In this document: one piece after another, positions 5,959-58,094 of the stretch
Position numbering within the stretch: position 1 is the stretch's first letter
How the letters are laid out: every line of letters starts with the position of its first letter
NCBI RefSeq assembly: GCF_030864355.1
Contig: NC_083397.1
Span: forward strand, 744,001 to 808,000
Direction of reading: 5' to 3'
Source: Cutaneotrichosporon cavernicola
Lineage: Eukaryota > Basidiomycota > Tremellomycetes > Trichosporonales > Trichosporonaceae
DNA length: 64,000 bases
The notes under the pieces: generated by a model
The model's input: the letters and a program-made list of their open reading frames with translations, nothing else
The model's database searches: none
What the model was told of the DNA's origin: nothing
Position numbers and translations under genes: made by a program

Positions 5959-8900
5959 ATGGACGTCGAGGTACCCCACGACCCAAACGACAAGCAATAT
6001 GTGTCCCAGGATGCACCAAAGCGCATGTATGTAGCTCTTTCCCTCATCGAATAGCTGGTGCTGACCACACCTCACAGAAAGCAGATCCAGTTCCAGCCAT
6101 TCGCGCCCAAGGACATTGTCCGCGTCTCCGAGGTCGAGGTCACCATCCCAGAGCTGTACAAGAACCATGAGGATGGTTCCCGTACGACTGCGCCGGGAGG
6201 ACCGCTTGACGCAAGGATGGTGCGTTTGCAATCCGGCGGACCTCATGCGCGACTTGTGACCTATACTGACTGAAGGGGCCGAACGAGAAGGGTGGCACCT
6301 GCCCAACATGTCACGAGGACCACACCCACTGCGTTGGCCACTACGGCTATGTCAAGCTGGCCCTCCCCGTCTTTCACATTGGTTACTATCGTCCAACCAT
6401 TAACATGTTGCAGTGCATCTGCAAGGTGCGTTACAAGCATTCACCACTCTAGCTGACAACAGACGTGTGCTCGCGTGCTCCTCCCACCTCAAGAACGTGC
6501 CGCGTTCCTCAAGCGCTTTCGCCGTCCCAAGTTGGAAATGCTGCAGCGCCAGGGTGCGCAGAAGGGTGTGCTCGCCTCATGCAAGAAGGTGACTACCTGC
6601 CCCTACTGCTTTGCGCCGAACGGAATCGTCAAGCGGTCCGGCACGCTCAAGATTTCGCACGAGCCGTACCGTTCGAATAAGAACGCCGAAGCGAAGCAGG
6701 AGTGGATGTCCAACTTCAAGTCGGTCATCACGGAGCAGGGCGCCATTGGAACGCACCTCAACAAGTCTGTCGAGGACATGAACCCGCTCAAGGTGCTAGA
6801 GCTGTTCCGCCGCGTGACTGCCGAGGATTGTGAGCTGCTTGCGCTGCGTCCCGAAATTGGCCGTCCTGAAGATTATCTCTGGACGTACATCTCGGTGCCG
6901 CCGCCGTCGATTCGCCCCTCGGTTGCGTCCGAAGCGGGTAACAACGAGGACGACCTGACGGCCAAGCTCGTTGAGATCGTCAACCAGAACCGCATGCTTA
7001 TGTCGGTGATGGAGAAGGGGCAAGGACTTTCTCAGACCATCTCCAATTGGGACGCACTGAGTCAAATGATTGCGCTCTACATCAACTCGCAGACCCCAGG
7101 TATCAACACGACGGGCAGCAAGCCGATCCGCGGCTTCGTCCAGCGTCTGAAAGGCAAGTCGGGTCGTTTCCGTGGCAACTTGTCCGGAAAACGTGTCGAC
7201 TTCTCTGGTCGTACCGTCATCGGTCCCGACCCAAACCTGCGAATTGACGAGGTTGCCGTTCCAGAGAAGATTGCGGTCAAGCTCTCGTACCCAGAGCGTG
7301 TCACGGACTACAACATGGAGGCCATGAGGCAGTGCGTGGTCAACGGCGCCAAGCTGCACCCTGGCGCGAACGTAATCGAGACTGGGCGTGGACCGTATCC
7401 CCGTCGCTCTCTTCAGCCCATCAGGGACATTGAGCGCCGCAAGGAGATGGCCCGCAACCTGCGGATTGGCGACATCGTCCACCGCCACGTTCGCGATGGT
7501 GATATCGTGCTCTTCAACCGGCAACCATCACTCCACAAGATCTCGATCATGTGTCACCGTGTTCGCGTGCGACCATGGCGCACGTTCCGTCTCAACGAGT
7601 GTGTGTGCAACCCCTACAACGCCGACTTCGACGGAGACGAGATGAACCTGCACGTTCCGCAAACAGAAGAAGCGCGTACTGAGGCACTTGAGCTCATGTC
7701 GGTCAAGAAGAACCTGGTCACGCCGCGCAACGGCGAGCCTATCGTCGCCGCCATCCAGGACTTCATCACTGCGTCGTACCTTCTCTCCAAGCGCGACCGC
7801 TTGCTAGACCGCCAGCAGTTCACCCAGATTGTGTCGTACTTGGGCGACGCAAATATCCCCATCGAGCTGCCTCCACCCACCATCTGGAAGCCGCAGAGGC
7901 TATGGACTGGAAAGCAGGTGTACAACCTCCTCATGCGTCCGAACAAGAGCTCGAACGTGCTCGTCAACCTCGAGGCGAAATGTAGGACATTGGTCGAGCC
8001 GCGCGCCGAGTACAACTTCCCTCTCGACATGGCGCCCAACGACGGCTACCTCGTCATCCGTAATTCGGAGGTCATGTGTGGTGTGTTCGACAAGAACACG
8101 GTCGGTGACGGAAAAAAGAACTCTGTGTTCGGAGTCATTCTGCGTGACTACGGCAGCAACGAGGCGGCGATGGCTATGACCAGGCTCGCCAAGTTGTCAG
8201 CACGCTGGCTCGCGAACCAGGGCTTTTCACTTGGTATCAATGACGTTATTCCGGGCCCTGTCCTCCAGGAGAGCAAGGATGCTCTGGTCGAGAAGGCATA
8301 CAAGGAGTGCGACGACAACATCGAGCTGGCCAAGCGCGGCAAGTTGCAGAACATGCCCGGATGTGACCAGGAGACTACTCTTGAGAGCACCATCTCGGGG
8401 ACCCTGTCTGCCACGCGTGCCAACGTCGGTGACATCTGCAAACGCGAACTGTCGCGTGCCAACGCTCCGCTTATCATGGCCACCTGTGGATCCAAGGGTT
8501 CGCTCATCAACGTCGCCCAGATGGTTGCACTGGTCGGCCAGCAGATTATTGCTGGTAAGCGTGTCGCAAACGGCTTCCAGGACCGCTCTCTACCGCACTT
8601 CAAGAAGAAGAGTATCGACCCACCAGCGAAGGGTTTCGTTCGTAACTCGTTCTTCTCCGGTCTCTCGCCCGCCGAGTTCCTCTTCCACGCCATTTCCGGT
8701 CGTGAGGGTCTTGTCGACACTGCAGTAAAGACGGCCGAGACTGGTTACATGGCACGTCGTCTGATGAAGTCGCTCGAGGACCTGTCGGCCCAATACGACT
8801 TGTCGGTGCGCAACTCTGTCGGCACCGTCGTGCAGTTCGAGTACGGTGACGACTCGCTCGATCCGGCGTGCCTTGAGGGTGACGCGACGCCCGTTGAGTA

Positions 8901-10458
8901 CGTGCGTAGCTGGCAGCATGCCATGGCCACCGCCCCGAAGGACGACGAGAAACTCTATCCTTATCAGATTGAGGAGATTGCTCGTTACATCTACCCAGAG
9001 CTCTACGCGGGCAAGGGGAAGGCTATCATCCCGCAGGAGTGGCAACAAGTGCACGTCAAGTTCCGCGAGGACACGTACCACTTCATCAACGACAATATCG
9101 CCAAGAAAATGGCCGAACAGCGCGAGCGTCGCGGTGTGCCCGCCGCCGACACGAGAGAAGCGGCGGAAGAGTACGAGGACTTCTTGCAGTCGCCAGACCC
9201 GGTGGTTCAGCGCGCGCTTGTCAACGCGTTCTCCGTCACGCGTTCGCAGCTCGACCAATTCCTCGAGAACTGTCGTACACGTTACCTGCTTGCCAAGATC
9301 GAGCCGGGATCCACTGTTGGTGCTGTTGGTGCTCAGTCGATCGGTGAGCCTGGTACCCAGATGACCCTCAAGACGTTCCACTTCGCTGGTGTCGCATCCA
9401 TGAACGTCACGCTCGGTGTGCCGCGAATCAAGGAGATTATCAACGCGGCCAAGATCATTTCGACTCCCATTATCACTGTGGAGCTCGAGCAGAAGCGGGA
9501 CGAGTCGGTTGCTCGTATCGTCAAGGGTCGTATCGAGCGGTCGACGCTTGGCGAGGTCGCTTCGATCATCGAAGAGGCGTGGACAGGCGCCGGCGCATTC
9601 ATCGAGGTGCATGTTGACATGGATGCCATCTCGAAGCTGCAGCTCGAGATCACCTTAGACAGCATCAAACACTCGCTTACGCTCGCGCCAAAGTTGAAGA
9701 TCCGCGACAGTGACGTCACAATCAACTCCAAGAAGTCACGCATCAAGATTTATGTTAACGACCCGTCCGACAAGGACAAGTTTTCGGGCGTGTATGAGCG
9801 CCTCAAGTACCTCAAACGCGCGATCCCGTACGTCCAGGTCAAGGGCCTCCCGGAGATCGACCGCTCCGTCATCAACAAGGACGAGAAGGACAACAATAGG
9901 CTGCAGCTCCTCGTGACAGGCTATGGTCTGAGCGAGGTCATGGGCACGGACGGCGTCGACGGTATCAACACCAAGACGAACCATGTCATGGAGACAGCAA
10001 AGGTGCTCGGTATCGAAGCGGCACGTCAGACCATCTACAACGAGATTCAGACGACCATGAGGTCTCACGGCATGAGCATTGACCCACGCCATGTCATGCT
10101 CCTCGGCGATGTCATGACGTACAAGGGCGAGGTGCTCGGCATCACGCGCTTTGGTGTCCAGAAAATGAAGGACTCGGTGCTCATGCTTGCGTCGTTCGAG
10201 AAGACGACGGACCACCTCTTCGACGCCTCCCTTTTCTCCAAGGTCGACGAAATCGAGGGCGTTTCCGAGTGCATCATCATGGGCACGCCTGCACCAGGCT
10301 GCGGCACGTCTCTGTAAGTGTCACTTATCTGCATTGCTAACACCAGCGCGTCAATTGTCACCCAGGCGCCGTTCCTGGCTAAGCGCAAGCCCCTCCTCTT
10401 CGAGTCTGCCTACAAGGACGGCCGCGAGCGCGTCGTGTCCGGCATGGACATCGACTAA
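5959..10458 (+). CDS. RPO31: DNA-directed RNA polymerase III largest subunit RPC1
   Basis: This is the catalytic beta'-like subunit of RNA polymerase III, which makes tRNA, 5S rRNA and U6. Five exons (5959-6026, 6078-6219, 6276-6425, 6463-10313, 10347-10458) join in frame to 1440 residues, close to the yeast protein (1460). The Zn-clamp motif CPTCHEDHTHCVGHYGYV is in exon 3. The universal catalytic motif NADFDGD with three Mg-binding aspartates is at about residues 506-512 (nt 7618-7638). The bridge/trigger region contains GEPGTQMTLKTFHFAG. The Pol III-type C-terminus (SIDPRHVMLLGDVMTYKGEV) is present and there is no Pol II heptad tail, which excludes Rpb1. Introns are 51, 56, 37 and 33 nt. 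The gene is convergent with UMP/CMP kinase, with an 82-bp gap. Confidence 0.98.
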
Positions 10459-17810: not shown

Positions 17811-18589
17811 GGTTGTCGATGGTGTTGAGGGCTACAGTGGCCTCGGCGGTGGAAAAGGACGTCTCCGAAATCTCGCGGATCGCGTGTGCCACACTGAAAA
17901 CTCCGTGTCGCGTTAGGCGAGCGGGATGGTTGGTAGGCTGCTAAAAGAGATCAATCATATGCGTGCCTATGTGATACTGATATTAGCTTAAAGGGGGCAA
18001 AAATCCAAAAATCCATATTTCATCCGACGCTCGTATAGTGTAGGTGGTTATCACAGTTCGTTGTGGTCTGAATGTCCCATCCGAGCTAACCGCTGTTCGA
18101 CTCAGCGTGCGAGCATCTTTTTTGACTTTTGCTCTCTGCACTCGGCATTCCATAGTATTAGGGCGAATACCATTTGGCTACGTGGACGTTGGTTAGTCTT
18201 GGCTTTCCCATGTGACCACCCATGGTCGAGTTCTAGACGATCTAGACGTCGTACGCGTTGGTGTCCAAGTAATTCTCATCAAGGGAAGCCATCTATGCTG
18301 CGATAAGGGTTAGGTTGTATGTGTACCCAGTAGTGTCTCGTCATAGTGTCTCACTCTTCAACCTCAGCCATCTCGTCGAAATTGCCGCATCGTGTCCATT
18401 CCATCAACTACCCTCTCTCTATCTCTCTCTAATCTCCCATCTCTCCATCTGTTCATCCTTGTCACGTCATCGACCTACACCAACCCCCCACATGTCTCCC
18501 CGTTGATTGTACATACCTTCGACCCCATCCTCCACCTCCCGCGCACGCCCATCGAATTCCGCCCCGACCTCCACTCCCGTCGCTAACGA
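17811..18589. promoter_or_regulatory. Divergent promoter region, MRPL12 / apyrase
   Basis: A 779-bp non-coding spacer between divergent genes. The apyrase-proximal third is strongly pyrimidine-rich on the plus strand (CTCTCT runs at about 18410-18460), a common feature of fungal leaders and core promoters. No gene or RNA recognised. Confidence 0.5.
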
Positions 18590-31457: not shown

Positions 31458-34400
31458 TTAAACATCTGCGAGTTAACTCTGTCTATTCCGAAGGCTGGCT
31501 CACAGTATGAGTTGCCCGCCTGGGCATAGTTCATCGACGACAGCTGGTCCTCAGACATGCGTTCCTGGTACTTTTCATGGGTACGCTTGAACGAAGCAAT
31601 GCAAGTGCGGATCGTCGCAGAAATTGGCATCGGCTCCGATACGCGGGGTGCGAGGATGTCGGCCAGGAGAGGCGGAATGAACTTGGGGACGGTGTAGGGG
31701 AACGCTTCGACAATAGCCACAGCGCCGAGGACGGCGGCGTGGAGCTCGACAATCTTGGCCTGGTACGCTGGATTGACGACACCCGGTTCGAGGAAGTGGC
31801 GCGGAACCTTGACCGTGTTGATCTCACGCGTAAAGCGGTCTTTGAGAACAATCACCATCGAGCGCTGCGAGCAGCGGAGGAAGGAGCCTAACGTGACGGA
31901 CGCCATCTCGCGGACTTCCTGGTTCGGGTCCTTCAGACACGTCGAGATGACGTCGAGACACTTGGCCTTGCAAGGCTCCGACAGGAGCGAGAGGTTGCGG
32001 AAGTATGTGAGACTCAGCACCGGCATGCAGTGCATCTTGGTGCGCCAAGACTGACGTCAGCATTGTCAGACGTAAACTCACCGTCGAGTGCTGGAGGATC
32101 GAGATGAGCTGCATGATGAGCGGCTCGACCAGCTGGAATGCCGGGGTAATCGATGTAGTCCAAGCGAGCAAGCGGCCGGCGATGGCCTGCATCTCGTTGT
32201 TGTCGTTCATCTCGCGTAGCTCGAAGATCTCGGGCAGAATGGGGATGAGGTATGGGAACGTGCCTACGGCATGTACGTCCGAGAGCTCTATCGTGAGCCA
32301 GTGCATCACTGCTGTCAGTTTCATCTTTACGCTCTCGCCAGCTTACTCGTAACCGCCGTAGTGTCGTGCGCCGACATTATGGCCTTTGGACCGTGAGGAC
32401 GTTCCTTGCGCAGCTCCTGGAGGCGCGCGACAATCTCCGTTAGTTGTGCCTGGAAGGGCGGGTTGCGGATGCCCATGATGTCCAAGTTACACTCGGGATC
32501 GTCCAACACAGCATCCACGAGGGCGTGTGCTGAAGGGTAGGAGGCGTTCCACTTGAGCTGGTCGAGGCCATTGAGGACGGAGCCGATCAACGCGCGTACA
32601 TCCGCGTACGGACAGTCGAGGGCCTTGAAATATAACTGTGCAAACTCGGGCGACCACGACTCGAAGCGCCAACGCAAGCAGCGCAGAACCGAGCGGCAGA
32701 GCTGCACGCGTCGGCTGAGGTCAAACGCGGAGCCACTCTGGAAGTCGGCGGCCAAGGCCGTTTCGAGCATGAAGTCGACCAGGGGCTTATAGCGGCGCGG
32801 GTCCTGCTCGTGGAGGACGTACTCGACGGTGATGTCCCAGCACTTGACCGTGTCCTGACGGATATTACGGAACAGTTCAGGGAGCAGTGGCGAGAACCAG
32901 TCCCAGAAGTCCTTGCGGTCCTTGCCTGGCCACTCCCAGGTGCCGCGCAGTAAGCCCGCCAGTAGCTCCCACATGGCGCGGGTGATGTGGCGATCGTACA
33001 CCTTCTTCGCATCCATGTCCTTGAGCATGTTGTCCACGATTGGCTTGATCTGGTCCAGCACAGGGCGGCCGTTGACCTGACAGAGCGATAAGATTAGGTC
33101 GATGTGGTTCGCGGAAGGGTAATTGCGCGACTCCTCCTGAGACCAGAAATCGGAGAGGCGCTTCCACCACGCTGGATCATTGATCGCGTTGCTGACAAGG
33201 TCGACCGCTGGCTTGCAGGCTGGCTCAAGGTGGAAGACCTGCTCATCCCAACCGGAGAACCGGGAGACTTCCATCTTGCGGCCCCAACAGAGCCATCCAG
33301 TGTCGATGCGGTCCTGGAGGACAGAGTCGTCCGTAGGCGGCTCGCGGAAGCTAGCGAGATACTCTTGGGTAAAGTCTGGCCCAATATTGGTGAGGTCAAG
33401 CTCGCGAGCGAAGGGGTCAAACGGCTCCTGGAGGAAGAGACGCTCGAGAGAATCCTGGGCAAACGTACGCATCGTTGCCTGGAACAGCATACGGGTCAAA
33501 CCAGCTGAGCCATAGTCGCGTATGCGAGGATGCGAGTTGCCAACGTTGGTGAGGAAGAACTCGAGGAGGCGCGGGTCAGTGGGACGGTCGCGGCGCGTCA
33601 ACGAGTACAGGAAACGAGCAGCTGCCTGCTGGTACCTCCAGTTGAGGGTTGGGTCTTGTGTAGTGGAACGAACGTGGTCGACAAGCTTGTCATACTGCTC
33701 ATCCTGGAAAGCCAAACGTGCGACCTCTCCCTCGTCTGTGGCCCTGATCACCGCTTCGCTGGGCTTGATGGGTCCGCCAGCCGCCTCAACGAGGTCGTCT
33801 GCCGCCTTTTCCGAGGTATCGACTCTTAAGTTGAGACGGAACATGACCGGCTCGCGCATCTTTGAGATGAGCTCATCGATCGCCTTGCCAACCAAAGTCT
33901 GAATCGAAGCCTTGGTCTCGTGGTGTGCGCCAAGAAGACAGTCGACAAGCTCGACAAGTCCACGCCAGTCGCGCGCCATGCGGGCCAGACCAACTATGTT
34001 GTAGCGCAGAACGTAGAGAGCGCCCTTCATACGGTCTGGGTCGTTTCCAGGTTGGAGAGCGTCGAAGAGCGTCGGGAAGCACAGCACCCACGAGCCGCGG
34101 TACGTCTTGGTGATCGAGTCGAGCTGGGACTGCGCGCGACGTCGGATGCGCACAAACGGCGACAAGCAGAACTCGAGCATGCTCGTAATGAGCTTGTCGT
34201 CCAGAGCCGATCGGACACGGTAGTAGCTAGCGGTCATGAGACGGTTGCTATGGTGTACCTGAGCAGCACCCAAGAGCACAGAGCGGTGCTGCTTGCGCTG
34301 CCCATCGTACATGCGCTTACTCGCTTGCAAATTCTCGTACGCTGCAGAGGCCGACTGGTACTTTTTGGAGCGCATGCCGTACGACACGAGCCACGACCCG

Positions 34401-37400
34401 ATCGTTGCGACTAGCAACTTGACACTGTCGACTGAGCTGTCCGAGTCGCCCGCAGTGCGCATGATGTTGGCTGCGCGGTGGAGCATCTCTCCTGTGCGCG
34501 CGCGGAACTGCATGACCCGCTGGTAGCGAGGGTCGTTAGGGTCCACGAGGAGGAAGCCGGCCTTGTACGGCGGCAGCAACTGCCACAATTCCTTGGGAAT
34601 GTACGATGGGGCAACCTTGCCACCCTGCTTGAGTTCCTCCCGCTCCTGAATGAGCGAGTAGGTGCCTAATAACACCTCGTCGACGAGGTTCATGGCACGG
34701 CAGAAGTCGTTGATCCACACCTGGTCGCCAGTACGCGTCTCGAGGAGACCTTCAAGAGTGGTGACCGCCTCGTCGGCGAGGCCAACAACTTCTAGGGCCA
34801 TTTCGACGTCGGCGTCGTTAGGTCGCTTCCACTGAGGCAGCGCCTCGTTGGCGCGATACAGCTTGCCCCACCAGAGAGAGTGGTTGAGCTTGAAGTCGTC
34901 GCTGTCGCGGTCCGGCTTGCTGAGAAGGTTCATCTCCTCGAGGTAGAGGGCGGTAAGGCAGCTGAGCGTCTTCTCGACGATCTTGCCAGTCCAGGCCCAG
35001 CCGCGCTCGGAGTACGTGTTCTTGAGCATGACCTTGAGTAGGTCGATGTAGTCGGCGCGGTGCTTGGGTAAGTTGAGGCGTCCGGGAACCAGCAGGCCAT
35101 AGAGGATGGACTGCCACCAGTGGAGGGGCGCGTCCGATGGCCTAGGGATGGAGGTAGTCGTGGTGCGTGTAGACGATGCTCCCGCCTTGAGCTCGCTGAT
35201 GATGCGCTGGCGACAGATGGGAAAGAGACGCTCAAAGACCTTAGTCGCATTCGCCGCCGAGAGGTTCTTAACCAGTTCGCCAACAGCGTCCACTGCGTTG
35301 GAGCGCGTCGTCGTTGTAGCGTATTCGACTACCTGTTCCAGAGCAGCGTCAAAGAGCTTGTCATCAAGCGCCGCGAAAATGGCGCCGCAGGTGTGCAGCA
35401 CACTCTGCAGCGTCAACATCTCCGTCTTACCACCGGCGCGGCCAGTCTTACCACCCTCTTCGGGGAGGTTGGCAAATAGGAGCAGGACACGTCCGAGGAA
35501 CTCCGGCACCCATTCGCGGAAGGCGGCAGTTGATAGGCGAACCCGCTCATTTACCTCCAGGTCGTTGAGCGCCTCGAACTCGTTAGTGATTGGGTCGTTT
35601 GGATCGTCCTCGACCGTGATGCGAGGAGCCATGCGCAGAGACCGTGAGCCAGCCTTGACTGCCCTGGCCCTTTCCTCGTCGACCTCCGAGATGTCGGCGA
35701 TACGGATGTAGTCCACCATGTTGCAGATTGCCATGCACGACAGCCCAGTCTTGGTGGGGTCGTTGAGGTCGATGCCAGGAAGGAGCAGAGTAAAGATGTC
35801 GGCCACGTACATGCCGCCGTAGCGCCACAGCTGTCGCCCAGCCAAGGGGAACGCGACAGCAGCGACAGCAAACGTCACAGACGCAGTGCGCTGCGTCTCC
35901 TCCAGACCCTGCAGCGACGGGACCGCCCGCTCCATGATCGCTGGCATAATCAGGTCAGGCTCGAGGAGCGCGAGACGACGCAGAGTCGAGATTGCCGGCT
36001 GCGCTGACTCCATGTCCTTGTTGAACATGGCCGACAGCGCGACAGGCCGGAGGCAAAGCACGAACGCGCGCTTGATCTCAGGAGTGAGGCGCCATTCGAG
36101 AGGCGTCTTGCATGACGGCTCCTCCTCCTGCTTCCATCGCTGAACGAAGTTGTTCGTCAAGTGGGAGAGGAAAGCGGTGAGGAACGCCGACCATGGCCCT
36201 GCGTTGCTAGGGTGGAAGAAGGTCTCGCAACTGGTGATGAGGTTGGAGAGGTGGTCCAGTGCCTTGGAGCCTGCGAGATACTTTTTGCTGGCTTCGATGC
36301 GCTCGCCCGCTGCAGCGAGAGAGTCGGTGCTGCCTGATCTGGACATGGCGGTGAAGCCGTTCTTCACGCGCGTGAGAGGATCCAGGTAGTTCTGGTTTCC
36401 CGAATAGGTAGGGTAGTGAGGTTCCGCAGGAGTTGCGGCGCGTGTCGGCACGCTGTTGGTACCAAAGGGCATAATGGCCGAGTCCTCTGCCATGCTGTAG
36501 ATGATGACCTCGGCGAGACTCTGGGTGCGGTCGATGGGCTTCTTTGCATCCAGAATCTTCTTGCTTGTGCGTGCGTCGGCAGCAGTGATGGACATGCTGT
36601 TTTGGGATGCCAGACTTCCTCCGACCGGAACGTCTGCCTGTCAGCTGAGTCTCAAATGCTTTGGGTTGACTCACTCAATGAGCGCAGACACTTGGACATG
36701 ATGAACTCGAACTGCTCGTCAGTGAAGACACCGACGTCCTTGCGGATGCCGCGCCAGTTGGGATCCCCCTGGTCCTCGTCTGCTGGGAGGAGCTCGGGGT
36801 CGATCCAGTAGTTGAGTCCGTCATCGTCTTCAACGACCTTGCCTTGGACGTCGAGGAGGCGGGCCTTGTGCTGCCGGTGGGCCTTGCGGGTAGCAGGGTT
36901 AGAAGCCTGCTCCGCGGGGGTGTTGGTGCGGCCGCGCGGGATGCGGTTAAGGATTGACGGATCTGATCGCGCGGGATCGACATGTGTTATAGCAAGCTGC
37001 CCAATCAAGTCCGAAGCCTGGTCGTCCCACAAGCCGCTGTTGAGGCCATACCACATGCGGAACACTAGAGACGTCAGTATGAGCCCTGCCAACGGGACAT
37101 ACCCAGAGGGAGCCACTTCTCGCAGTGGGTGATGGGGAGGAAGTGAACCAGGAAGAGCTGTGTCGCCAGGATCGAGTCCATGCTGGGGTCGAACTGGGGA
37201 AGTATGACTTCCAGCATCTCGTCGACCTGCTCTGGATGGAAGAATCTCTGAGCCGTCTCTGCGACATTCAAGTAGACTGGGGCAAGGTTGACCGTGTGGC
37301 GCGCTAGCTTGTTGGGGTGGGGGAACAGCTCGTTGTATAACGCGTCGTACAGGGGTCGCCATGGCATGCGCAAGTCGTGGATGGTCAGTGACCGGTCGCT

Positions 37401-42134: not shown

Positions 42135-44834
42135 ATGTCTGGGAACCCGGCGACAAGCCCGAAGCGTATAGGCGCCATCCGCCATCCCCAGTCTGAGTGT
42201 ACGTGTGACCAGGGCCCTATATATTTCCCAATATCCAGCTCCATCCCAAACTCTGCTTTGCCTCGCATCGTTCAAAGGAACCTCGCACTGACACTTGCCC
42301 AGACACTGGAGCCACTCCAATGACTTCGTCCGAGCTGCCCATCAGTCAGACCTATGCGCGCCACTCGGGAGGCTATGGCCCTGGGCCAACTGCTGCCCTG
42401 GCTGGCCCTCCATCCGCATACCGGCAGGATATGATCAACCCCCACTATGTTGCGCCACCAACCCACTCGATGGGTTCAACGTCCAGAGGCGACTCGAGCG
42501 TTAACGGCTTCATGTCCCCTTCCCTCTCGACCGGTCCTCCCACGTCGTCCCGAGCCCCGACTGCTCACGGATACTCGGCCACCAGTTCTCCCAGCATGAA
42601 CAGGCACTCTTATGGCCAGGGGTCTGCATACATCTCCACCAACCCACAGCCACCAAGGCCGGTGCGCTCTGGCACGCTTCCCCCGGGCGAGCACCCTGGC
42701 ATGATGAATGGCAACCACTACCATGATACCCGTAGTTCATCAAACGGCTCCTCAACTGTACACAGCAGTGGCATCGGCAGTCACGCACCCACCATTGGCG
42801 GCCTTGGTCTTACGCCGCAGTACCAGCAGCCCGATCATTTCAAGAGCAACGCTCCGTTCGAGACGACATTTGACCAGAAGATCAACATCGGACCCGTCAT
42901 TCCTGTGCAGCCCGAGAAAGACAGCGCCCCTCCACCTACAATGCGCGCCCGCAGCGGGACCGGCAAGAGCACCAAGGATAAGAAGAGTGTCCTTGGCCTG
43001 CTCAATGGTGAGTTGGCGAGGTTTTGTCCGACTGGTGAGACACGTCGCTGACTTCAACAAAGACTTCCTCAACACCAATCAGAAGAACCTGGTTATCTCG
43101 ACCCCGTATGACCCCATCCACCTCACCCACGTTGGATATGACTACAACACGGGACAATGTAAGTCCCTCTATGACTGCCTTGTTCTAACGCTATAGATAC
43201 GGGGATGCCCACAGAATGGCAGAAGATTCTCGACGAGAACGGCATCACCCGCGCTGAGCAGGAGGAGAACCCCGACAAGGTTCTTGCCGTTGTCCAGTTC
43301 TTCCAAAACCGTGACATCCCCGAGACGACCGAAGATGATGTGTGGAACAAGATGCGTAACGTCGCGCCTGCCCACCAGCTGTCACCCGCGGAGTCGCCTC
43401 AGCCCGTCTCGGCTGCCATGTCGCGCGAGAACAGCAACGATGGGAGCAACAACAACTACCAGTTCAATGCTCCCCGCGCTGCTCCTCCACCCCCAGCGGC
43501 TGCCAAAAGCCAACCCGCCATGCAGGCTGAGCGCACTGCGCCTGTTGCGCCGCCTAAGCAGCTCCAGCGCATGCCATCCTCGCAGTCCTCATCGCCTGCG
43601 ATCCCTCCGTCAACTCAACTCGACCGTTCGCACTCGCAGCGGTTGCCATCCACGACCTCGAGCAGTACGCCCAAGAGGACACTCGACCGTTCCGTTTCGT
43701 CTCGTACCCCCACCAGTAGCAACAAGCCTTCCCCATCATTGCACAAGTCGCACTCGCAGTCTGGGAGGTCGAGGCGCCCAGAGCACCCCCAAAATGCCCC
43801 ACCAGTGCCCCAAGCTCCCTCGCAGGGGGTCACGCGCTCGACCACGAAGGGTCGCGACCAGGCTGTCACGACGCGCCGTCGAGACAAGGCCAAGGAGAGC
43901 GAGGAGGTCATTCGGCAGCTGCAGCAGATCTGCTCACCAGGCGACCCCAATTCGATATATCGCCAGCTCAACAAGATTGGCCAGGGCGCGTCAGGTGGTG
44001 TTTACACTGCTTATGACCGCTCGGGAACACCGGTTGCCATCAAGCAGATGAACCTCGAGAAGCAGCCAAAGCAGGACCTGATCATCAACGAGATTCTCGT
44101 CATGCGCGAGTCATCACACCCCAACATTGTCAACTTCAAGGACTCTTACCTGTGGAAGGGTGACCTCTGGGTCGTCATGGAGTACATGGAGGGGGGCAGT
44201 TTGACGGATGTTGTGACTGCCCACTGCATGAGCGAAGCGCAGATTGCCTCGGTTAGCCGCGAGACTTGCGAGGGCCTTCGCCACCTGCACTCGAAGGGTG
44301 TTATCCACCGTGACATCAAGAGTGACAACATCCTCTTGTCGCTTAATGGAGACGTCAAGCTCAGTGAGTTTCAGCGATTTACCCGAGCTTTGTTCGAGTT
44401 AGCGCTAACGTCCAGCCGACTTTGGCTTCTGCGCGCGCATCGCAGACCCCTTGCACACGAAGCGCACAACAATGGTCGGCACTCCCTACTGGATGGCGCC
44501 AGAAGTCGTCATGCGTAAGGAGTACGGACCCAAGGTCGACATCTGGTCGCTCGGTATCATGGCGATCGAGATGCTCGAGGGCGAGCCGCCCTATCTGAAC
44601 GAGAACCCTCTGCGCGCGCTGTATCTCATTGCGACAAACGGCACGCCCAAAATCAAGGACTGGGACAAACTCTCTAGCGTCTTCCGCGATTACCTCAAGG
44701 CGTGCCTCACGGTCGACGCGGACACGCGCCCGAACGCCGAGCTGCTACTGCAGAACGAGTTCTTCAAGTACTCGGCCAAGCTTACGAGCTTGGCGCCCAT
44801 GATCAAGAGCGCGCGCAAGGGAAACCAGTCCTGA
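42135..44834 (+). CDS. STE20: p21-activated kinase, Ste20/Pak1 type
   Basis: A Rho/Cdc42-regulated Ser/Thr kinase controlling polarity, mating and MAPK signalling. Five exons (42135-42198, 42303-43007, 43063-43158, 43197-44363, 44416-44834) join to 816 residues. After a disordered Ser/Pro-rich N-terminus, the CRIB/PBD reads [17 protein letters not shown], followed by a short p21-binding extension with [15 protein letters not shown]. The linker has Pro-rich possible SH3 sites. The kinase domain shows [38 protein letters not shown] and [10 protein letters not shown] (all catalytic residues intact) and ends [15 protein letters not shown]. No PH domain precedes the CRIB, so this is a Ste20/Pak1-type kinase and not Cla4. 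Whether it is the Ste20 or Pak1 paralogue cannot be settled here. Confidence 0.94.
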
Positions 44835-47042: not shown

Positions 47043-49027
47043 ATGCCGCTCAGACTCGAAGACGCACAGTGTTCGATCTGCATCGAGAATCTCTTTGACC
47101 ACCACGACGACCTGGACGAGGTCCTCCCAATCGCCACTCCAGACTGCGGTGCGTCCTGTCCGCCTCTTATCTGATTACAGGACATGTCTTCCACGAGCGA
47201 TGCCTCTTCGCATGGTTCACATCACAGGCCAACGCGTACCTCGCCCAGATGGTGGACCAGGGCGCAGCCGTGACCATTGCTGACGCGCCCGCCGAGTGTC
47301 CCGAGTGCAGGGCGGAGTGTTTCGCCGACCCCGAGACCGGCGAGCCCGCCGTCCACCGCCTCTATATCAACTTTTCTCGTGATGAGAGGTCCATGTCTCA
47401 GGCTCAGTCGAGCCAGCATGTTCCCAGTAGTCCGAGCATGCGGTGGAGAAGCGCGGATAAGATGGTTCTGGGGCTGGCGCGGCGCGCTAGAGGCGTCGCG
47501 GCCGAGCTGGATGCCGCAGGGCCCGATAGTCACGAGGATGACGTTCGCGGCGCCCTACGCCGGGCAGAAGCATTGCGTGCGGACGCTGTATCTTCCAAGG
47601 CTGCCGAGGGGTTCAAGGTGAGATACTGGGGGACAGAGCTGACCGCAGAAATATATGGCCGGCCTCACAGCAGCGGTCAACAAGCTCCACAACCGGCTCG
47701 AGGAACACCCGCTCATCGGGACTCTTGAGGGTCGTGTCCGTACTCTTGAAGATCAATTGGCCGCTGCCCAACGCGAGCATGCGCGGAGCACGCTTGAGCT
47801 CGAGCGCCGGATGCAGGCCGAGCTTGAGCGCGTTATCCTCAAGGAGCGAGGCAAGGCAGAGAGGGACGTCGCGCGGGCGACAAAGGAACGAGACACGATG
47901 CAGCGTGAGGTCGAGAAGAGTAAGATCGCACTGCATCGGGGGCGCACAGCAGCAGGTGAACGCGAGGCCGACCTGCAGGCCAAACTGGCCGAAGCGCAGA
48001 GGTGAGCTAAAGTGAATTCCTCAAAGCTGACATCAGACTCGGGGCGATAGAGACCCAGACGCGCACAGAGTTGCAGAAGGACCTGGCGGACCGCACCAAG
48101 ACGCTCAAGATGTGGCAGGCCAAGGCGGAGAAACGGGGCCAAATGAAGGGCAAACTCGAGGAGCTGCGGGCCGAGAACGAGGCGCTCCGTGCGGTGGCTT
48201 CTACTCAGCACAAGGGATCGCAGAGGGCACAATTTGTGCCATCCAGCCCTCGAGAATTTCGGTCCGAACCGGAGCCCATCGACCGCACGCTCGAGCTCGA
48301 GGTCGAGGCGCCCACGCTCGACTCACTGCTGGACCACATGAACGCGGACTGTGACAAGCGCTCAACCACCGCTCGGACGTTCAGCTTCGGATCTCCCTCA
48401 CCTCCTCGTAACCTCACCACGACAGCGCGCTCGCTCTTATTCGATGACCAGCCGCGCTCGTCGACTGCGCGCACACTCTCATTCGATATGGACCAGCCCA
48501 AGCCCCGCAGGTCCGGTACGGGACGACCCGAAGCGGTCCGCAGTAATCCCGCCACGAGCAGCAAGTACTTTGGCCGCCCGTACGAAGGCGGCCCAGAGCG
48601 ATCCAAGCCCGTCCGCGCGGCTGTACGCGAGCCATCCCAGGAAGGACTGGGCCGTGAGAAGACGCGCTCTGGAATGCAGCTGCAGGAGCAGTTCGCCAAG
48701 ATGAGCGACAACGCACAGAAGGGGAAGCAGAGGTTGAGCGAGATGAGAAACGGTGTGCACCTGGCTGCGCTTAGCGACCCCGCTCCGGTCCCCAGGCCAC
48801 ACGTGTTGGTGGACTGCTCGAGCCCGATCCGTCCCAAGCGTCCGCTGGAGGTGATCGAGATCGGCTCAAGTCCCGAAATCTCTGAACGGCGGCACGATAC
48901 AAAGCCCACGCGCCCCGACGCCAGACGGGTACAGAAGGAGCCAAGCATACTCGAGTACCTTGGGGTCGACAGCCGCGGGCGGCAGCGGGGGGTCATGACG
49001 GGCGCCAAGGTACGGCGACGTGCTTAG
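47043..49027 (+). CDS. RING-finger / coiled-coil protein, TRAIP-like E3 candidate
   Basis: Four exons (47043-47148, 47181-47617, 47649-48001, 48037-49027; introns 32, 31 and 35 nt) join to 628 residues. The RING begins at residue 10: CSICIENLFD, then, across intron 1, CGHVFHERCLFAWF and CPECRAECF. RING is followed by VHRLYINF, a coiled coil of over 200 residues (KLHNRLEEHPLIGTLEGRV to LEELRAENEALRAV) and a basic disordered tail ending GVMTGAKVRRRA. An N-terminal RING with a [NH]xLYI/F-type strand and a long coiled coil is the TRAIP/NOPO layout (replisome-unloading E3 ligase). The tail repeats a TARTxSF motif three to four times (STTARTFSF, TTARSLLF, STARTLSF). Assignment to TRAIP is inference. 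Confidence 0.68.
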
Positions 49028-49177
49028 GCATATAGAAGAGGAGCTTGAGTCCTTGTAGAGCTAATGTGATACATCAATGTATGTCGGGTACAGCAATGCT
49101 ACCAAGTCGTTCCGGAATGTGTATCTACAAGAGCCAGTCTACAAGACTTCGCATGTTACGTTTTTTTCCCTCTTCCC

Positions 49178-52100
49178 TCACTCCCTACTCCCATGCTCTG
49201 TCGGTGACGTCTCATTGGCATTATGATGCTGCCTCTGCGGGAAGGTGCGCGCAATCTCGACCCCAGCGTCGAGGTCGAGGCCCCACTCGAGGTTGTCCTC
49301 GCCTTCAAGCATGCTCGTCTCGCACTCGCCACGTCTCTCCATTCGAGTCTTCTTGCGCGGTGTTGACGATGGCGATTCCCAAGAGACTGATGCCGACCGT
49401 TCACGGGGTGCCGTGGCCAGTAGCTCAGGTTCCGAATCCGAGTCCGGGTCGCGGAAGCGCTTGCGGGGCGTGGTCTGGGGCGCGCCCCCGTGAGGATTGG
49501 TGTGGGTGTACGCTGCAGTAGGCCGCGTGGTCTGCCGCATATAGGGGCCGGAGGCTGGTGAGGAGGTCGAAGTTGGGCGCGGCAGAGGTGGAGGTAGCAT
49601 CAGGCCGGTCGAGTTCCGTGCTGGTGTGGGCGCCGGCAATGTGTAGCTCGCACGTGAGACGGACGAGGCTAAAGTTGGCACCTTCGCTGACCCTTCTCTG
49701 TGATTCACCATGCTAGAGCCTGTCCGTTCCTTGGGAGAGGCAATCTGGATGACGCCAGCGTTTCCACCCGTGGAACCGCGTTCCACTTGTGAGGCTCGCG
49801 GGACTGAGGCGGCTGCTTTCACAGTTTTGGCGCGCCGCTGACCTTGTGCATTTGTCGCGCGGAAAGGGAAGGACTTGGATGAACAGGTCACGGAGGATGT
49901 TGGGAGGGTGAGACGCTTGGCTGGCTGAGATGGAGGAGTTGCAGACAGGTGATCCGTTCGCCCGCCGCGCACCCCGTCGTCCTCCATGTAGGTGGGGTCC
50001 TCCAGCGTGATGTGACCAAAATTGTACCCACCCATCTGCGCATCCATGTCTTCGTCTTGACGCTTCAGAGGATCATCGGCCAATTCACTCGGGGACGATG
50101 TCGACAGGTCGTTTAGCTCGTTGACTCGGGAAGCTGTTGCACGTTGGAGCTCGGACACGGGTCCAGCACCTGGGTGCAACAGGCATGCTTCTTCTCTCTC
50201 GCGGCCAGGGCACCACAGAGCGCGCTCTGCATAAACCTCTCCTGCCTCAGCGCAACGAGGGCATATCGCCATGTCGTATGCGCCTTCTGCATCCTGGAAG
50301 ACGAGTCGGTTGGAGAACCTGCGATCATCTGGTGGGAGTGTGTAATTTGCGGCATCGCCCAGAGTGATGTCCACAAGAAGCTGAGAATCGCCGTAACCTG
50401 TGGACAGCACAGAGACATCCGAGTCGGTCTCGGAGGGAGAGGACTGGTATTCCTCCTCGCTGGCGTTGCCGTCTTCATCCTCGTCCTCGTCCACGAGTCT
50501 ATTGTCGTCGGCGCCGTCGTCAGTTGCATCCGACTCGTATGCACTAAAGCGGTCGTCATCGTAGTCGTCGCCTTCAGAGGTCCTGGTGTCGGAGTCGGAG
50601 GAGTCTGGGCTGTGCTCAGCTGGATAGGATGGCGCGTCATATTCTGCCGGCTCGCCTCCATCAAGAGGCTGGTCGTCGAAGGAAGCCGCATGATCGAGCG
50701 CGAACGCCGGCGAGACCGACTGTACCGTTGCCTCGTCGAGAGCCGCTGAAACATTGGTGGCTGACAGCCCGCCTTTAGATTCTGAGTGCGAACACATTGC
50801 TGGCCGAGTTCGCCCTTTGCAGTACGCCGCCATTACAGCACGGTTACCACCAGCGCTCTTGCATGAGCGGCAACAACGCGGCGTGCCCTTGCTCAAGGCG
50901 AGATTGGGCAAGTAGCCATCGTGATCACTGGGTGGAACCAATGCTGACAGCTCTGGAATAGCGTCGGCAGCTCCTATTCCAGCGTCAGCCGTTTCTGCTG
51001 TGGCATCGGTAACTTCGGCTGCAGTATTGGTAGGCCCTGGTGTAGCCTCTGCAGCATCACCAGTCCCCATGTGCGGGCAAAACCTTGGGCGAGAACGGCC
51101 GCGGCAGTATCCTGCCAGAGCGCCGCGATCACCGCCGGCGTCCTTGCATGCTCGGCAGCACCGCACGACGTCGCGGACCACGAGTAATTCTTGATAGTAG
51201 CCAGGATGGTCTTTGGGTGGAAGTGGCGCGATGATCGGCGTTGAGGCTGGTTCCGGTTTGGTGAGATCGGGATGCGGCGTGCGGGATTCGATAGTCTTTG
51301 GGGCTGCAGCTGTAGGACCACTAGCGCCGTAATACGAGCAATGCCATGGTCGATCCCGCCCTCGACAGTACCCTGCCAGAGCGCCGCGCTGGCCGTCGGC
51401 GACTTTGCATGCACGGCAGCAGCGCACAACGTCGTTGATCACGGCCAGTTTCTGCTTGTATCCCGGATGGTCCTTAGGGGGGAGGAGCGTGTCAGGTGAT
51501 CTTGGGATCGATTCCGTCTCCATGAGTTCGGAGGGCTGGGCGCGCGCCTCTGATGGGCTCATCTCTGTGTTGTAGTACACGCAAAGCCTTCGCCGAGATC
51601 GTCCTCGACAGTGCGCTGCGAAGCGGCCACGGTCACCACCAGCGTCCAGACACGTCCGGCAGTGGCGTATTTTACCTACGCCCAGCCCGTTCGTGTAGTT
51701 GGGGTGGTCCTCGGAGTGATCCTTCCGCAGCAATGGAGAGAACTCGCGGGCCACGGCCAGTACGTCCGCTGTCGTGTCGAAACCTTCCTCGTAATAGGCA
51801 CACAGGTGAGGTCGTGAGCGACCACAGCAGTAGGCGGCCAGACGAGCGCGATGTCCTGATGCGCTTTTGCACGCGTGGCACGTCCTGGGCTTGCCGAGCT
51901 GAATGCTCAGTTTTGCTGAATAACCAAGCGTTCCTTCCGGAGGAACAGTCCAGAGATGGAGGGACGCCAACAGCAATGCTGAGTTGGGACGCCGTTTCGT
52001 ATGCCGTTTCGACGAGGTTGAGTGACGCCGCCTCCTCGGTGACGGGGTGGTCTCTGGTTCGTCGGCGGCCCGTACGGCTTCGTCACAGACGTCTTCCTCA

Positions 52101-53658
52101 ACAGTAACAAAGCGAGGATTGGCAACGATATCTCCGACGGAACGTCGTGAGTGTCGAGGTTGAAGGGCGTGAGTGCTTGATTCACTATTGTGGTTAGGCT
52201 TTCGAACGAGGGGAGATGACGTTAGTGTTGAGGAAGAGGATGAGGATTGTCCTGCGGTAGGTGATGTCCAGAGTAATGAGGGATATTGATCACGGTGGGA
52301 TGCCCTTCTGTCTTCGGTGGCTTGTCGGTCTGGGGAAGGTGGTCTGACCCAGGTTTCCCGCCGTCGGACAGTCGTAACTTCCTGGATGCTTCGCGTTGAG
52401 GAAGGCGCGCTGCTGATAGGATGGGCAGATGAGCGGGATGCAGGTCGTCCCGCCGGCAATGTCACTTGACGGTCACGTTCCCACAACGGTGGAGAAGGTA
52501 GGGCGCGCTCCTTGCCCCTCCTTGAGCGGGGAGCTTGGACTTGGCCTTGAACAGTGACAACGCGTGTAGTGACCTCTTCGACCTGGACAATGTGGCTGGA
52601 AGCACTGCGGGACAAGCCAGAGACCGTTCGAGAAAGCTCCCGAGGATGCTGACCACGCCGAACAGACGACGCGTAAGCACCACGCAGGTTTGGGGTGGAG
52701 CGTGAAAGCTCAAGGGCCGGGTAATCTGAGTGGTTCACACGAGGTCGGCGGCGCGGAGAGGAACCCGATTCACGATTACGTGCAATGGGCGATGGTGTTG
52801 GTGAAGGATGGCGAAATTGCTAAGGATCAACGAGGGCTCGGAGCGGCTACTCACTGTCTCGCGTCCACCAGAATTGACGCGACTGCCTTTGGGCAATTCA
52901 AGCTCATCCATCACACCATCCTCCACCTCGGGAGAAGTACCAAGTACAAGGTGACTCAGCCGCCGCAACGGCGAGCTGTCCGGGGCACCTCTGCGCTCCA
53001 ACTCTGGGAGTGGTTGCTCGCCAAACCGTTTGCGCCGCGCAGCCTCTGCCCGCATAAAGTCGTCAAGATCGTGGAGGTCGTCGGCCGTCCATTCGTTCTC
53101 AATCTCGACAACAGGATACTGCGCGTCGAGACCCGATTTGTCTCCCCAGTCACCGAGTTCGTCCTCATCGTCGCCAAACTCGACCAACTCTGGGCCTATA
53201 ACCGGTTCAGACTGTAGACGGAGGGGGTCCAGGCGGATGCCATCCTGGTCGTCCTCGATCGCCTCGCCGAGGTAATCACTGCCCTCGGCGAAGGGGCGTG
53301 CTTCGAGGGACTTGAGATGCCCATTATCCGTCGAGATCACGTAGGTTTCAAGGTCGATCTCGTCGTCTTCCTCCGGCGGCACCGAGCTGTACTTGTCGGC
53401 AATGGCATCGAATGACGACTGAAGGCGCGCACGCGATTGAAGTAGCTTCTGGCGCAGCTCACGGTCAACCTGACGCTCCGGGTGCAGGATTGTCCTGAAG
53501 CGTGGGCCAGTCTTTGGTGAGGGGAGAGTGGCAGAGGAAGAGCGTGTTGAGGTGATTGGGGGGTTGAGGTAGGGCGCGGGGGATGAAGATGCGGGTGGTG
53601 TTTGTTGTCGTCGATTGAATGTGGACCATGATTGTGCACGCCCGTTCCCCCCTTGCAT
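49178..53658 (-). CDS. SCM3: Scm3/HJURP-type CENP-A chaperone with six C2C2 metal-binding-like modules
   Basis: Scm3 deposits the centromeric histone H3 variant. Two exons (52855-53658 and 49178-52819) flank a 35-nt intron (GTGAGT...CCTTAG, 52820-52854) and join in frame to 1481 residues. The Scm3 domain is at residues 62-120: RARLQSSFDAIADKYSS, DDEIDLETYVISTDNGHLKS. Residues about 560-1151 hold six modules, each roughly L/V-PP-x-DHPGY...R-C-R-x-C-K-x-A-GG-x-R...A-x-YC-x-GR-x-RP...C, with cysteines always spaced C-x2-C-x13-C-x8-C. An acidic block (DDYDDDRF...EDEDEDG) lies between modules five and six. The C-terminus is basic and disordered (TPRKKTRMERR). Large fungal Scm3 proteins are known to carry lineage-specific DNA-binding domains or a cysteine-rich metal-binding cluster C-terminally, which fits. 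The gene is head to head with a Dsc4-type gene. Confidence 0.88.
50171..51946 (-). repeat. Six-copy coding repeat, C-x2-C-x13-C-x8-C module
   Basis: Copies, as residues of the full Scm3 protein: 560-612, 634-685, 714-765, 801-851, 896-947 and 1096-1151. First cysteine pairs read CHAC, CRTC, CRAC, CRAC, CRSC and CPRC. The third cysteine is followed by CGR, RGR, RGR, RGR, KGR and PGR. Copies 3 and 4 share PPKDHPGY, DVVRCCRACK and GALAGYCRGR and are the most alike. Copy 6 is the most diverged and is separated by the acidic block, yet keeps every cysteine spacing. Confidence 0.93.
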
Positions 53659-54289
53659 GATAAACGGGTCAAGTTGTTGCCAATGGTGCGTTAAAATCGG
53701 CTCTTGGCTAACATGACGCGGAGGGGGAGGATGAGTGGGGTGAGATGGAGATGGAGAGCAGAGCTAGGAGAGAGGAGACTGAAAGTGTTAAAGTAAAGTA
53801 AACAAGTTACGTTGGCTGAATGCAAATGTCCATTCCTTACTGTACCCTTCCTTACCTTCCCTCAGCTTGACTCTCACTCTGTTGGGTGGCGACCGGCTCA
53901 TCGGCTCATCCTCATCGGCCAATAGCGACGGAACCAAATTGGGCTACGACTGGATGTCAGGCACTCAAGTCCTCGACTGGCCTCCACGGGCTCTGCAAGC
54001 TCCATGCACACCGTATCACAGCCATCATCGTCAATATCCTTCCTTCATCCATCTCATCCATCTAATCTCCAACCGCTATCCAATCCCTCGTTCTCGTTGT
54101 GCCACTACATCTCGAGCATCTGTTTCCTATCCTTACCGGCTACCCAAGACCATGCAAGCCACCCTGCCCAAGACCTAAAATCCCACGTCTCACCAAGTCA
54201 AGGCCCTCCTTGACGTCAACGAGCAGCGGCTGTTGTGACAGGTCAAACGCTCGCCAGAGGCTTTAACCACCTTTTTCTATCCGCCATCC
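53659..54289. promoter_or_regulatory. Divergent promoter region, Scm3 / Dsc4-type gene
   Basis: A 631-bp spacer between divergent start codons. It includes purine-rich sequence near 53720-53770 and CATCCATCTCATCCATCT repeats near 54040-54065. No extra gene convincingly seen; small upstream readings on the plus strand at 53867-54213 look like leader sequence. Confidence 0.5.
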
Positions 54290-55668: not shown

Positions 55669-58094
55669 ATGTCTATCGCTCTCCCCATCACCCCTGTTCC
55701 TCTATTCAACCTCGCCGCCCCGGCCACGTACCAGGGCATCGAGGTGGAGTGGATCCTCGACCCCACTGCCTCGCCCAAGTTTGACGGCTCTTCGGACATT
55801 GAGACCATTTCGGCCAAGCTGGAGGCCAACTCGCCTCGCGACGGACCCGCTCTCCCCGAGCTCCCCGCCAAGCTCGACCGCGATACCCCCTTCGCCGAGG
55901 TCGCCAAGATCCTCGACGCGCTCGACGACTACCTCGCTTACCGGTAGGGCCTTGACGGTTCCCATGTGGCTGACAGCAGCACGTACTTTGGCGGCGCGCA
56001 GATTGGCTACAACGATGTGCTCATCTGGGGTCTGATCCGCTCCAACAAGTCGGCGGCGGGATCAGTCAAGATTCCCGGCCGGCCCCACCTCGCTCGTTGG
56101 TACACGCAGTTCGAGACGACCGAGCTGCCCAAGACCATCGCCGAGTCGTTCAACAAGGCCCGCTCCGACATGGACAAGGGCAAGAAGGTCAAGCGCCAGG
56201 AGGTTATTGAGGCGGTTCTTCCCAACGCTGTCGAGGGCAAGGTCGTCGTCCGCTTCGCTCCGGAGCCCTCTGGGTACCTCCACATCGGTCACCTCAAGGC
56301 CGCCATTCTCAACCGCTTCTTCGCCGACAAGTACAAGGGCAAGTACATCCTCCGCTTTGACGACACGAACCCGTCCAAGGAAGAGGGTGAGTTCGAGGAC
56401 GCGATCAAGGAGGACCTGGCCATGATCGAGGTCGAGTTTGACAAGGTCGTCCACACCTCCGACCACTTTGACAAGATCCGCGAGCACACCGTCAGGCTCA
56501 TCAAGCAGGGCGACGCGTTCATGGACAACACGGACGCCGAGACTGTCAAGGAGCAGCGCCGGGCCGTTATCCCTTCGAAGAACCGCGACCTCTCCATCGA
56601 AGAGAACCTCAAGTTATTCCAGGACATGTGCGACGGCAAGGCTCCCACGTGGTCGCTCCGTGCCAAGATCGACTACGAGCACAAGAACGGTGTAATGCGC
56701 GACCCTGTCATCTACCGTGCGGTTGAGGGCTCGCACCACATCACTGGCACCAAGTACAAGGCGTACCCCATGTACGACCTCGCATGCCCGGTCATCGACC
56801 ACATTGACGGCGTGACTCACGCACTCCGTGCCAACGAGTACGCAGCTCGCCACGAGCAGTACGAGTGGTTCATCAAGAGGCTCGGCTTCCCCCACATCGA
56901 GATCTTCGACTTCTCACGTATCGACTTTGTGTACACTGTGTTGTCTAAGCGCAAGCTCAAGTACCTCGTCGAGCAGGGTGTCGTCTCGGGCTGGTCCGAC
57001 CCCCGTTTCCCTACCGTCCGCGGCATCCGCTCGCGCGGTATGACTGTCAAGGGTCTCAAGGAGTACATCATCAGCCAGGGTGCGTCACAGCAGTTGCTCC
57101 TGCTTGAGTGGGACGGCATCTGGACTGTCAACAAGCGTGTCATCGACCCCATCGCGCCCCGTTACTGGGCCATTGCCGAGGACAAGATGGTCCCCGTCAA
57201 GGTCGAGGGCCGGGACACGGACGCTGAGACTGTCGAGAAGAAGCCGCTCCACAAGAAGAACCCCGAAGTTGGCGAGAAGGACCTCGTCTTCTCGTCCAAC
57301 CTGATCATTGAGCAGGAGGATGCCAAGACGTTTGGCGACAACGAGGAGATCACTGCTATGGACTGGGGAAACGCCTATGTCGCCGACAAGAAGGTCAACG
57401 CTGCTGGCGATGTCGAGGCCGTCACTCTCAAGCTCCACCTCGCGGGTGACTTCAAGAAGACGTCTAAGAAGGTTACTTGGCTCGCCGCTCCCACTAAGGA
57501 GCACCCGCTCGTCCCAGTCACGCTCATCGAGTACGACTACCTGATCACAAAGAAGAAGATGGACGAGGCCGACGACCTCTCCAGCATTGTCAACCCCAAG
57601 ACCGAGTACCGCACGCCTGCGCTCGCGTCGGCCGAGGTCGCTAACCTCAAGAAGTGGGACATCATCCAGTTCGAGCGCAAGGGCTTCTACATCTTCCAGG
57701 GTACCAAGGACGCCGAGGGTCGCATGGAGTTTGGCTTCATCCCCGAGTAAGTTGATTATATCCGCCCAGCTAACGTGCAGTGGTCGTCTCGCCACCATCA
57801 CTCTCAAGGCTACCCCCACCGCGGAGACCCCCAAGGTTGCTGGGGCTTCCAAGGGTTCGTGGGGCAAGCCCGGTGCCAAGAAGGCAGCTCCTGCTCAAGC
57901 GCCGGAGGGCGCCAAGGTCAACCTCTCGGACGCCACGGCGGGCTTTGAGATCCCTGTCAAGGTCGACATGTTCGAGTCTGCTCGCGTCTAGTCAGTTTTT
58001 CTGAAAGTACTCAACTGATGACAGTGGCAAGGAGGCCGTCCAGATTAACCCCAAGGTCAACATGTTCACCTCGAAGCCAGTCTACGACAACTAG
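55669..58094 (+). CDS. GUS1: Cytoplasmic glutamyl-tRNA synthetase
   Basis: A class I enzyme charging tRNA-Glu. Four exons (55669-55943, 55980-57746, 57781-57990, 58025-58094; introns 36, 34 and 34 nt) join to 773 residues. The N-terminal 180 residues form a GST-like domain (TYFGGAQIGYNDVLIWGLIR), as in eukaryotic GluRS that bind Arc1-like partners. The catalytic core starts VVVRFAPEPSGYLHIGHLKA (HIGH motif) and continues RFDDTNPSKEEGEFEDAI, typical of the eukaryotic/archaeal GluRS class. The KMSKS-equivalent is VLSKRKLKYLV. The anticodon-binding domain ends about residue 690, followed by a Lys/Ala/Pro-rich linker and a tail with two similar MF motifs (KVDMFESARVY and KVNMFTSKPVY). Confidence 0.97.

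Follow-up and report, generated by a model that had tools for sequence, protein, structure and literature searches.

Scm3 proteins with cysteine-rich regions are a kind already known, since Aravind, Iyer and Wu reportedly described in 2007 large members of this family with fused DNA-binding domains and a cysteine-rich metal-chelating cluster. The same authors are said to have proposed that such additions to Scm3 recognize regional centromeres. The cluster is reported to be a lineage-specific C-terminal addition to Scm3 and in this resembles the six-module array described here, a likeness of description only. In fission yeast, the cysteine-rich domain of Scm3 reportedly binds zinc, and localization at centromeres is said to depend on it, a result attributed to Folco et al. 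in NAR 2024. This segment is reportedly located apart from the CENP-A-binding domain, like the modules of the Tremellomycetes, but it is a single domain, whereas two to six modules are found here, and this comparison is likewise one of description only. As far as the literature searched shows, an array of six copies is new, and so is a copy number that varies; a published account of a six-module array was not found there and may still exist in print.

The two-module Scm3 proteins of Cryptococcus and Tremella (P0002 and P0003, for example) share the module, the domain order and the C-terminal LEWGxD with the protein analysed here. They differ in having two modules instead of six, and the first module of Cryptococcus ends in C-x6-C. 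In PMC11185503, CNAG_02218 is named as the putative SCM3 of C. neoformans, and a selection analysis in which four three-chromosome Kwoniella species were compared with a sister clade places it in its top 30.

The Scm3-type gene is located at positions 53658-49178 on the minus strand of the window, by which we mean the whole stretch of 64,000 nucleotides from Cutaneotrichosporon cavernicola that was analysed. It would encode 1,481 amino acids, with the start codon and the splice join deduced from the open frames. Exon 1 (53658-52855, minus strand), whose start codon is deduced in this way, bears the Scm3 domain (53302-53454, minus strand), which by its family would bind CENP-A/H4. The domain matches positions 2-52 of PF10384 above the curated cut-off (54.8 and 51.6 bits against 24.3; E 1.7e-13 and 7.4e-14), and the only match to this family in the 20.2-Mb genome is the Scm3-type gene. 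According to PMC13322267, the scm3 domain is marked by the motifs KY and DxGxL, and by eye both are present in the translation (ADKYSSV and TDNGHL). A phase-0 intron of 35 nt (GTGAGT...TTAG, 52854-52820, minus strand) is predicted to join the two open frames. Exon 2 (52819-49178, minus strand) is a single open frame of 1,213 amino acids which contains all six modules. Judged by composition, a basic stretch with a pI of 11.7 (51959-52819, minus strand) lies before the module array, and an acidic linker (50354-50773, minus strand) with 41 D/E and 3 K/R in 140 residues precedes module 6. The conserved C-terminal motif LEWGLDLDAGVEIARTF (49241-49291, minus strand) contains LEWGxD, with L or M as x, in all nine rows of the alignment of the query with its relatives.

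Around the Scm3-type gene, the window contains ordinary genes identified by Pfam. These are the largest subunit of an RNA polymerase (6457-10314, plus strand), a PSME4-type proteasome activator (32330-36640, minus strand), a kinase with a p21-Rho-binding domain (43175-44515, plus strand) and a class I Glu/Gln-tRNA synthetase (55948-57747, plus strand), which lies a short distance upstream of the Scm3 gene. A tRNA-His (gtg) is located at 18029-18115 on the plus strand. The G+C content of the window is 58.4%. The contigs C1-C7 all start with repeats of the telomeric unit CCCCTAA, which matches 28 to 50 times in 400 bases, so the assembly is near chromosome level. Four contigs have lengths which are exact multiples of 2,500 (C2, 3,335,000; C4, 3,097,500; C7, 582,500; C8, 1,015,000), and C8 opens with a run of N, with no G or C in its first 10,000 bases.

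All six modules lie in the minus-strand frame of exon 2 and have the spacing C-x2-C-x13-C-x8-C, as the preliminary description had stated. In 2,000 residue shuffles of the exon 2 protein the motif occurred on average 0.001 times per shuffle and at most once. The modules were also scored with a profile built from 28 modules of relatives alone, which were defined by a regular expression and include one module with tyrosine in place of cysteine 3. This profile finds six of six query modules with 23.6-50.9 bits, and the best score among 501 controls, for which the whole protein was shuffled 500 times and reversed once, is 7.9 bits. Module 1 (CHACKSASGHRARLAAYCCGRSRPHLC) is located at 51880-51800 and scores 37.7 bits, and module 2 (CRTCLDAGGDRGRFAAHCRGRSRRRLC) follows at 51661-51581 with 45.2 bits. 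Module 3 (CRACKVADGQRGALAGYCRGRDRPWHC, 51418-51338, 34.0 bits) is a duplicate of module 4 (CRACKDAGGDRGALAGYCRGRSRPRFC, 51157-51077, 43.7 bits). The highest score, 50.9 bits, belongs to module 5 (CRSCKSAGGNRAVMAAYCKGRTRPAMC, 50872-50792), and the lowest, 23.6 bits, to module 6 (CPRCAEAGEVYAERALWCPGREREEAC, 50263-50183), which is diverged and acidic. The net charge of the core, from first to last cysteine, is +4 to +6 in modules 1-5 and -2 in module 6. The modules are unevenly spaced, with distances of 73, 81, 87, 95 and 203 residues between first cysteines.

Three further sequence features had been attributed to the modules. CxGRxR, starting from cysteine 3, is present in all six. The A-G-G-x-R core is complete in modules 2, 4 and 5 only; it is partial in module 1 (ASGHR) and module 3 (ADGQR) and lost in module 6 (AGEVY). 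Similarly, by eye modules 3, 4 and 5 have a clear PPxDHxGY lead-in, and modules 1, 2 and 6 a partial one.

Fourteen distinct homologous proteins were found in three protein searches, two of which scored only the candidates with most words in common, so that their list is far from complete. Modules are present in 12 of them, with two to four each, one copy being truncated. Each of the six Cryptococcus proteins and the protein of Tremella mesenterica contain two modules, those of Kwoniella newhampshirensis and Cryptotrichosporon argae three, and the proteins P0001, P0013 and P0014 three, four and two, respectively. Two Scm3 proteins of Termitomyces, which belongs to a different class from the Tremellomycetes, are without the module altogether. 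The expectation that relatives keep the cysteine modules was borne out in nine of nine named Tremellomycete proteins found. With a search by the Scm3 region alone, which is unbiased toward modules, seven of nine proteins, the query included, bear them. Since 12 of 14 homologues contain it, the four-cysteine module is a conserved module of Tremellomycete Scm3. Six is the highest module count among the proteins found, in agreement with the earlier proposal of an expansion to six copies. Of the 12 module carriers, 10 also have PF10384 within the predicted protein that bears the modules; it is not listed for P0013 and P0014. These two share the C-terminal motif LEWGMDE and are therefore probably incomplete Scm3 predictions.

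Within the genome, a six-frame search with a single module gave five matches, all inside the Scm3-type gene; this query missed module 6 and could miss diverged copies elsewhere too. Among the relatives, tyrosine replaces cysteine 3 in module 1 of Cryptococcus neoformans Bt85 (P0005), and the second module of C. gattii VGV (P0006) is truncated and stops after GGERAKTAE. These are either degrading copies or annotation errors. As some copies seem to degrade (Bt85, VGV), not every module copy appears to be indispensable.

The regular expression used to pick modules presupposes cysteines 1, 2 and 4, whereas a search with leave-one-protein-out profiles does not. Of 15 proteins searched in the latter way, 13 yielded modules, 35 in all, and by eye all four cysteines are kept in 33 of these modules, which upholds the conservation claimed for the module. 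The module alignments comprise 33 of these 35, without the tyrosine copy of P0005 and the truncated copy of P0006. In the 34 pattern-picked modules, the glycine two residues past cysteine 3 is invariant (34/34), and in AGGxR the second glycine is kept in 33 and the arginine in 32. In 31 modules an alanine stands three positions ahead of cysteine 3. Between cysteines 3 and 4 the spacing is x8 in 26 modules and x6 in eight. The net charge of the core is positive in 31 of the 34, zero in two and negative in one. Compared with P0001, the nearest relative, the query cores are 67% identical in module 1 and 44% in module 6, and the four linkers that separate modules 1 to 5 show identities over 15-23% of their length. 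This linker identity is partly lowered by the smaller number of modules in P0001 and by the lack of a clean partner for modules 2, 3 and 5 in the alignment.

The growth of the array can be traced in part by comparison with P0001. In a tree of 34 modules, which rests on few columns and has strong support on 4 of 31 inner branches, query module 1 pairs with P0001 module 1 (97/89) and query module 6, though short of the starred level, with P0001 module 3 (91/76). Query modules 2-5 group loosely with P0001 module 2. As the tree is weakly supported, the order of duplication was deduced from pairwise scores. By these, P0001 module 2 is the best match of query module 5; a global alignment places it on query module 4 and not on module 5, with about equal scores (185 against 187). 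Modules 3 and 4 share 70% identity over 198 nt, with dN 0.27 and dS 0.57 over 42 codons, a ratio of about 0.5, which indicates only mild constraint. Tandem Repeats Finder found nothing over 49000-54000. The simplest reading of these comparisons is that tandem duplication inserted about three copies between module 1 and module 6.

Structures of modules 4 and 6 were predicted with AlphaFold2 using the 33-module alignment, giving a mean pLDDT of 88.9 and a pTM of 0.71 for module 4 and of 88.5 and 0.70 for module 6. The two models are not independent, since both use the same 33 alignment rows. In both, short helices are predicted at residues 28-33 and 35-39, just past the first cysteine, with a hairpin ahead whose strands have four residues in module 6 and two in module 4. 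Modules 4 and 6 are thus predicted to share a similar compact small fold. As the hairpin sits before the first cysteine in the models, the domain appears to include the lead-in.

Membership in a known zinc-finger family was considered and found no support in Pfam or the PDB. Pfam gave no family for exon 2 at E values up to 10, and for the 33 modules it gave no zinc finger and six families, each matched by one module (best E 0.03). The best match of a profile search against the PDB (E 0.089) was to C2H2-type fingers around the first C-x2-C, and Foldseek gave no significant match for the two models (best E 4.9 and 6.4), folds this small being easily missed. VIA-align on the models gave nothing useful.

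We consider it fairly probable that the six modules, each with one zinc ion, tether the chaperone together with CENP-A to centromeric chromatin. Each four-cysteine module would fold around one zinc ion, as suggested by a compact, confidently predicted fold in which the four cysteines are nearly invariant. Modules 1-5 would contact DNA or nucleosomes through their net positive charge. Together, the modules would hold the chaperone, and any CENP-A it carries, on centromeric chromatin, a targeting role suggested because the cysteine-rich domain of Scm3 has been reported with such a role. Extra copies would raise avidity and would not bring new specificities; the partner of the acidic module 6 would be a different one. 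Zinc binding and multivalent chromatin contact are plausible on these grounds. The acidic module 6, the degraded modules of two relatives, the mild constraint on modules 3 and 4 and the lack of a solved fold resembling the models count against this reading.

The tether presupposes that Scm3 domain and modules belong to one protein, as had been assumed from the start. That the cysteine exon is instead part of a separate gene, so that the fusion is an artefact of the gene model, is scarcely credible. It would be favoured by an intron that is itself deduced and just 35 nt long. Although short, this intron comes close to the usual size, since four exon joins that could be measured in this genome, in genes of histone type, have gaps of 43, 44, 48 and 49 nt, and GTGAGT is the donor there too; gaps of 12, 24 and 106 nt at three more probes were unclear. 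The frame of exon 2 has its first methionine only downstream of module 2 and therefore needs an upstream exon, and the join is exactly in phase 0. Modules and PF10384 occur together in ten relatives, and P0001 has its Scm3 domain and modules within one predicted protein with no break. The P0001 frame is open across the stretch matching 52854-52820, where it starts with V-S, as the GTGAGT donor reads; an intron spliced there in P0001 would be a multiple of three. The separate-gene artefact was rejected on the start codons, the phase-0 splice and the joint occurrence in relatives, and we strongly infer a splice between Scm3 exon and repeat exon. Another doubt concerns the copies added to the array. 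Their gain could be neutral, the product of drift in a tandemly repeated coding sequence, with the ancestral-type modules working and the added ones contributing nothing, as the 70% identity of modules 3 and 4 over 198 nt, their dN/dS of about 0.5 and copy numbers of 2, 3, 4 and 6 among the proteins found would allow. Drifting copies would, however, be expected to lose cysteines, and the four cysteines, their spacing and CxGRxR are kept in all six copies, the diverged module 2 included, which makes drift improbable.

The main rival to chromatin contact is the binding of a protein partner. The modules might bind a Mis18-like or CENP-C-type receptor and not DNA or nucleosomes, and copy number would again tune avidity. 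In PMC4818781, Mis18 is described as responsible for the centromere localization of Scm3 in fission yeast and of HJURP in human. The most conserved residues of the module (Cys, Gly, Ala and Arg) may be structural, so that the contact face is not fixed by them, and the acidic module 6 would also suit a protein partner. Against this, the module cores are mostly basic, and no Yippee-Mis18 domain was found in the genome by a six-frame search, which misses split exons and whose positive control was silent, so that absence is not claimed. On balance, a protein partner is possible but rather unlikely, and the zinc tether to chromatin is preferred.

The Scm3-type gene is accompanied in the genome by a histone with at least two exons (within C4:1817742-1818102, minus strand), which by eye has CENP-A features and which we take to be CENP-A-like. 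A CENP-C domain matches over the cut-off (4 of 14 control genomes match below it), and Piwi domains match over the cut-off at two loci. By sequence, the parts of the CENP-A pathway that were looked for thus appear to be present, except for Mis18.

The preliminary description had also proposed that the array marks regional centromeres. This finds no support in the genome, where few retroelement matches were found in 20.2 Mb: at least five to rve (integrase), at least four to RVT_2 and at least three to RVT_1, of which several share one element. For Cutaneotrichosporon (Trichosporonales), PMC10568926 reports no obvious centromeric repeats and chromosomes that are possibly holocentric or have very short centromeres. 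As a separate observation, a retroelement with RVT_1 and rve is located about 16 kb past the end of the window (C5:823860-825931), and about eight such places exist in the genome. Mapped centromeres of Tremellomycetes range from long and retrotransposon-rich in Cryptococcus to short and repeat-poor in Kwoniella, with median lengths of 32.9 kb and 6.7 kb, respectively, and LTR remnants in only some centromeres of Kwoniella, according to PMC11185503.

Module counts of two in Cryptococcus, three in K. newhampshirensis and six in this genome fit the direction of repeat loss in these few lineages. It is conceivable, at a low probability, that the chaperone itself carries the centromere address, the zinc-module array having gained copies as centromeres lost their repeats and so replacing repeat DNA. 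The comparison of module count with centromere length across lineages is a lead and not a test.

How a CENP-A chaperone finds a centromere without a recognizable DNA sequence is an open question. The module is a small protein unit not covered by any Pfam family, and the differences in copy number between relatives would represent natural variants of the presumed targeting part.
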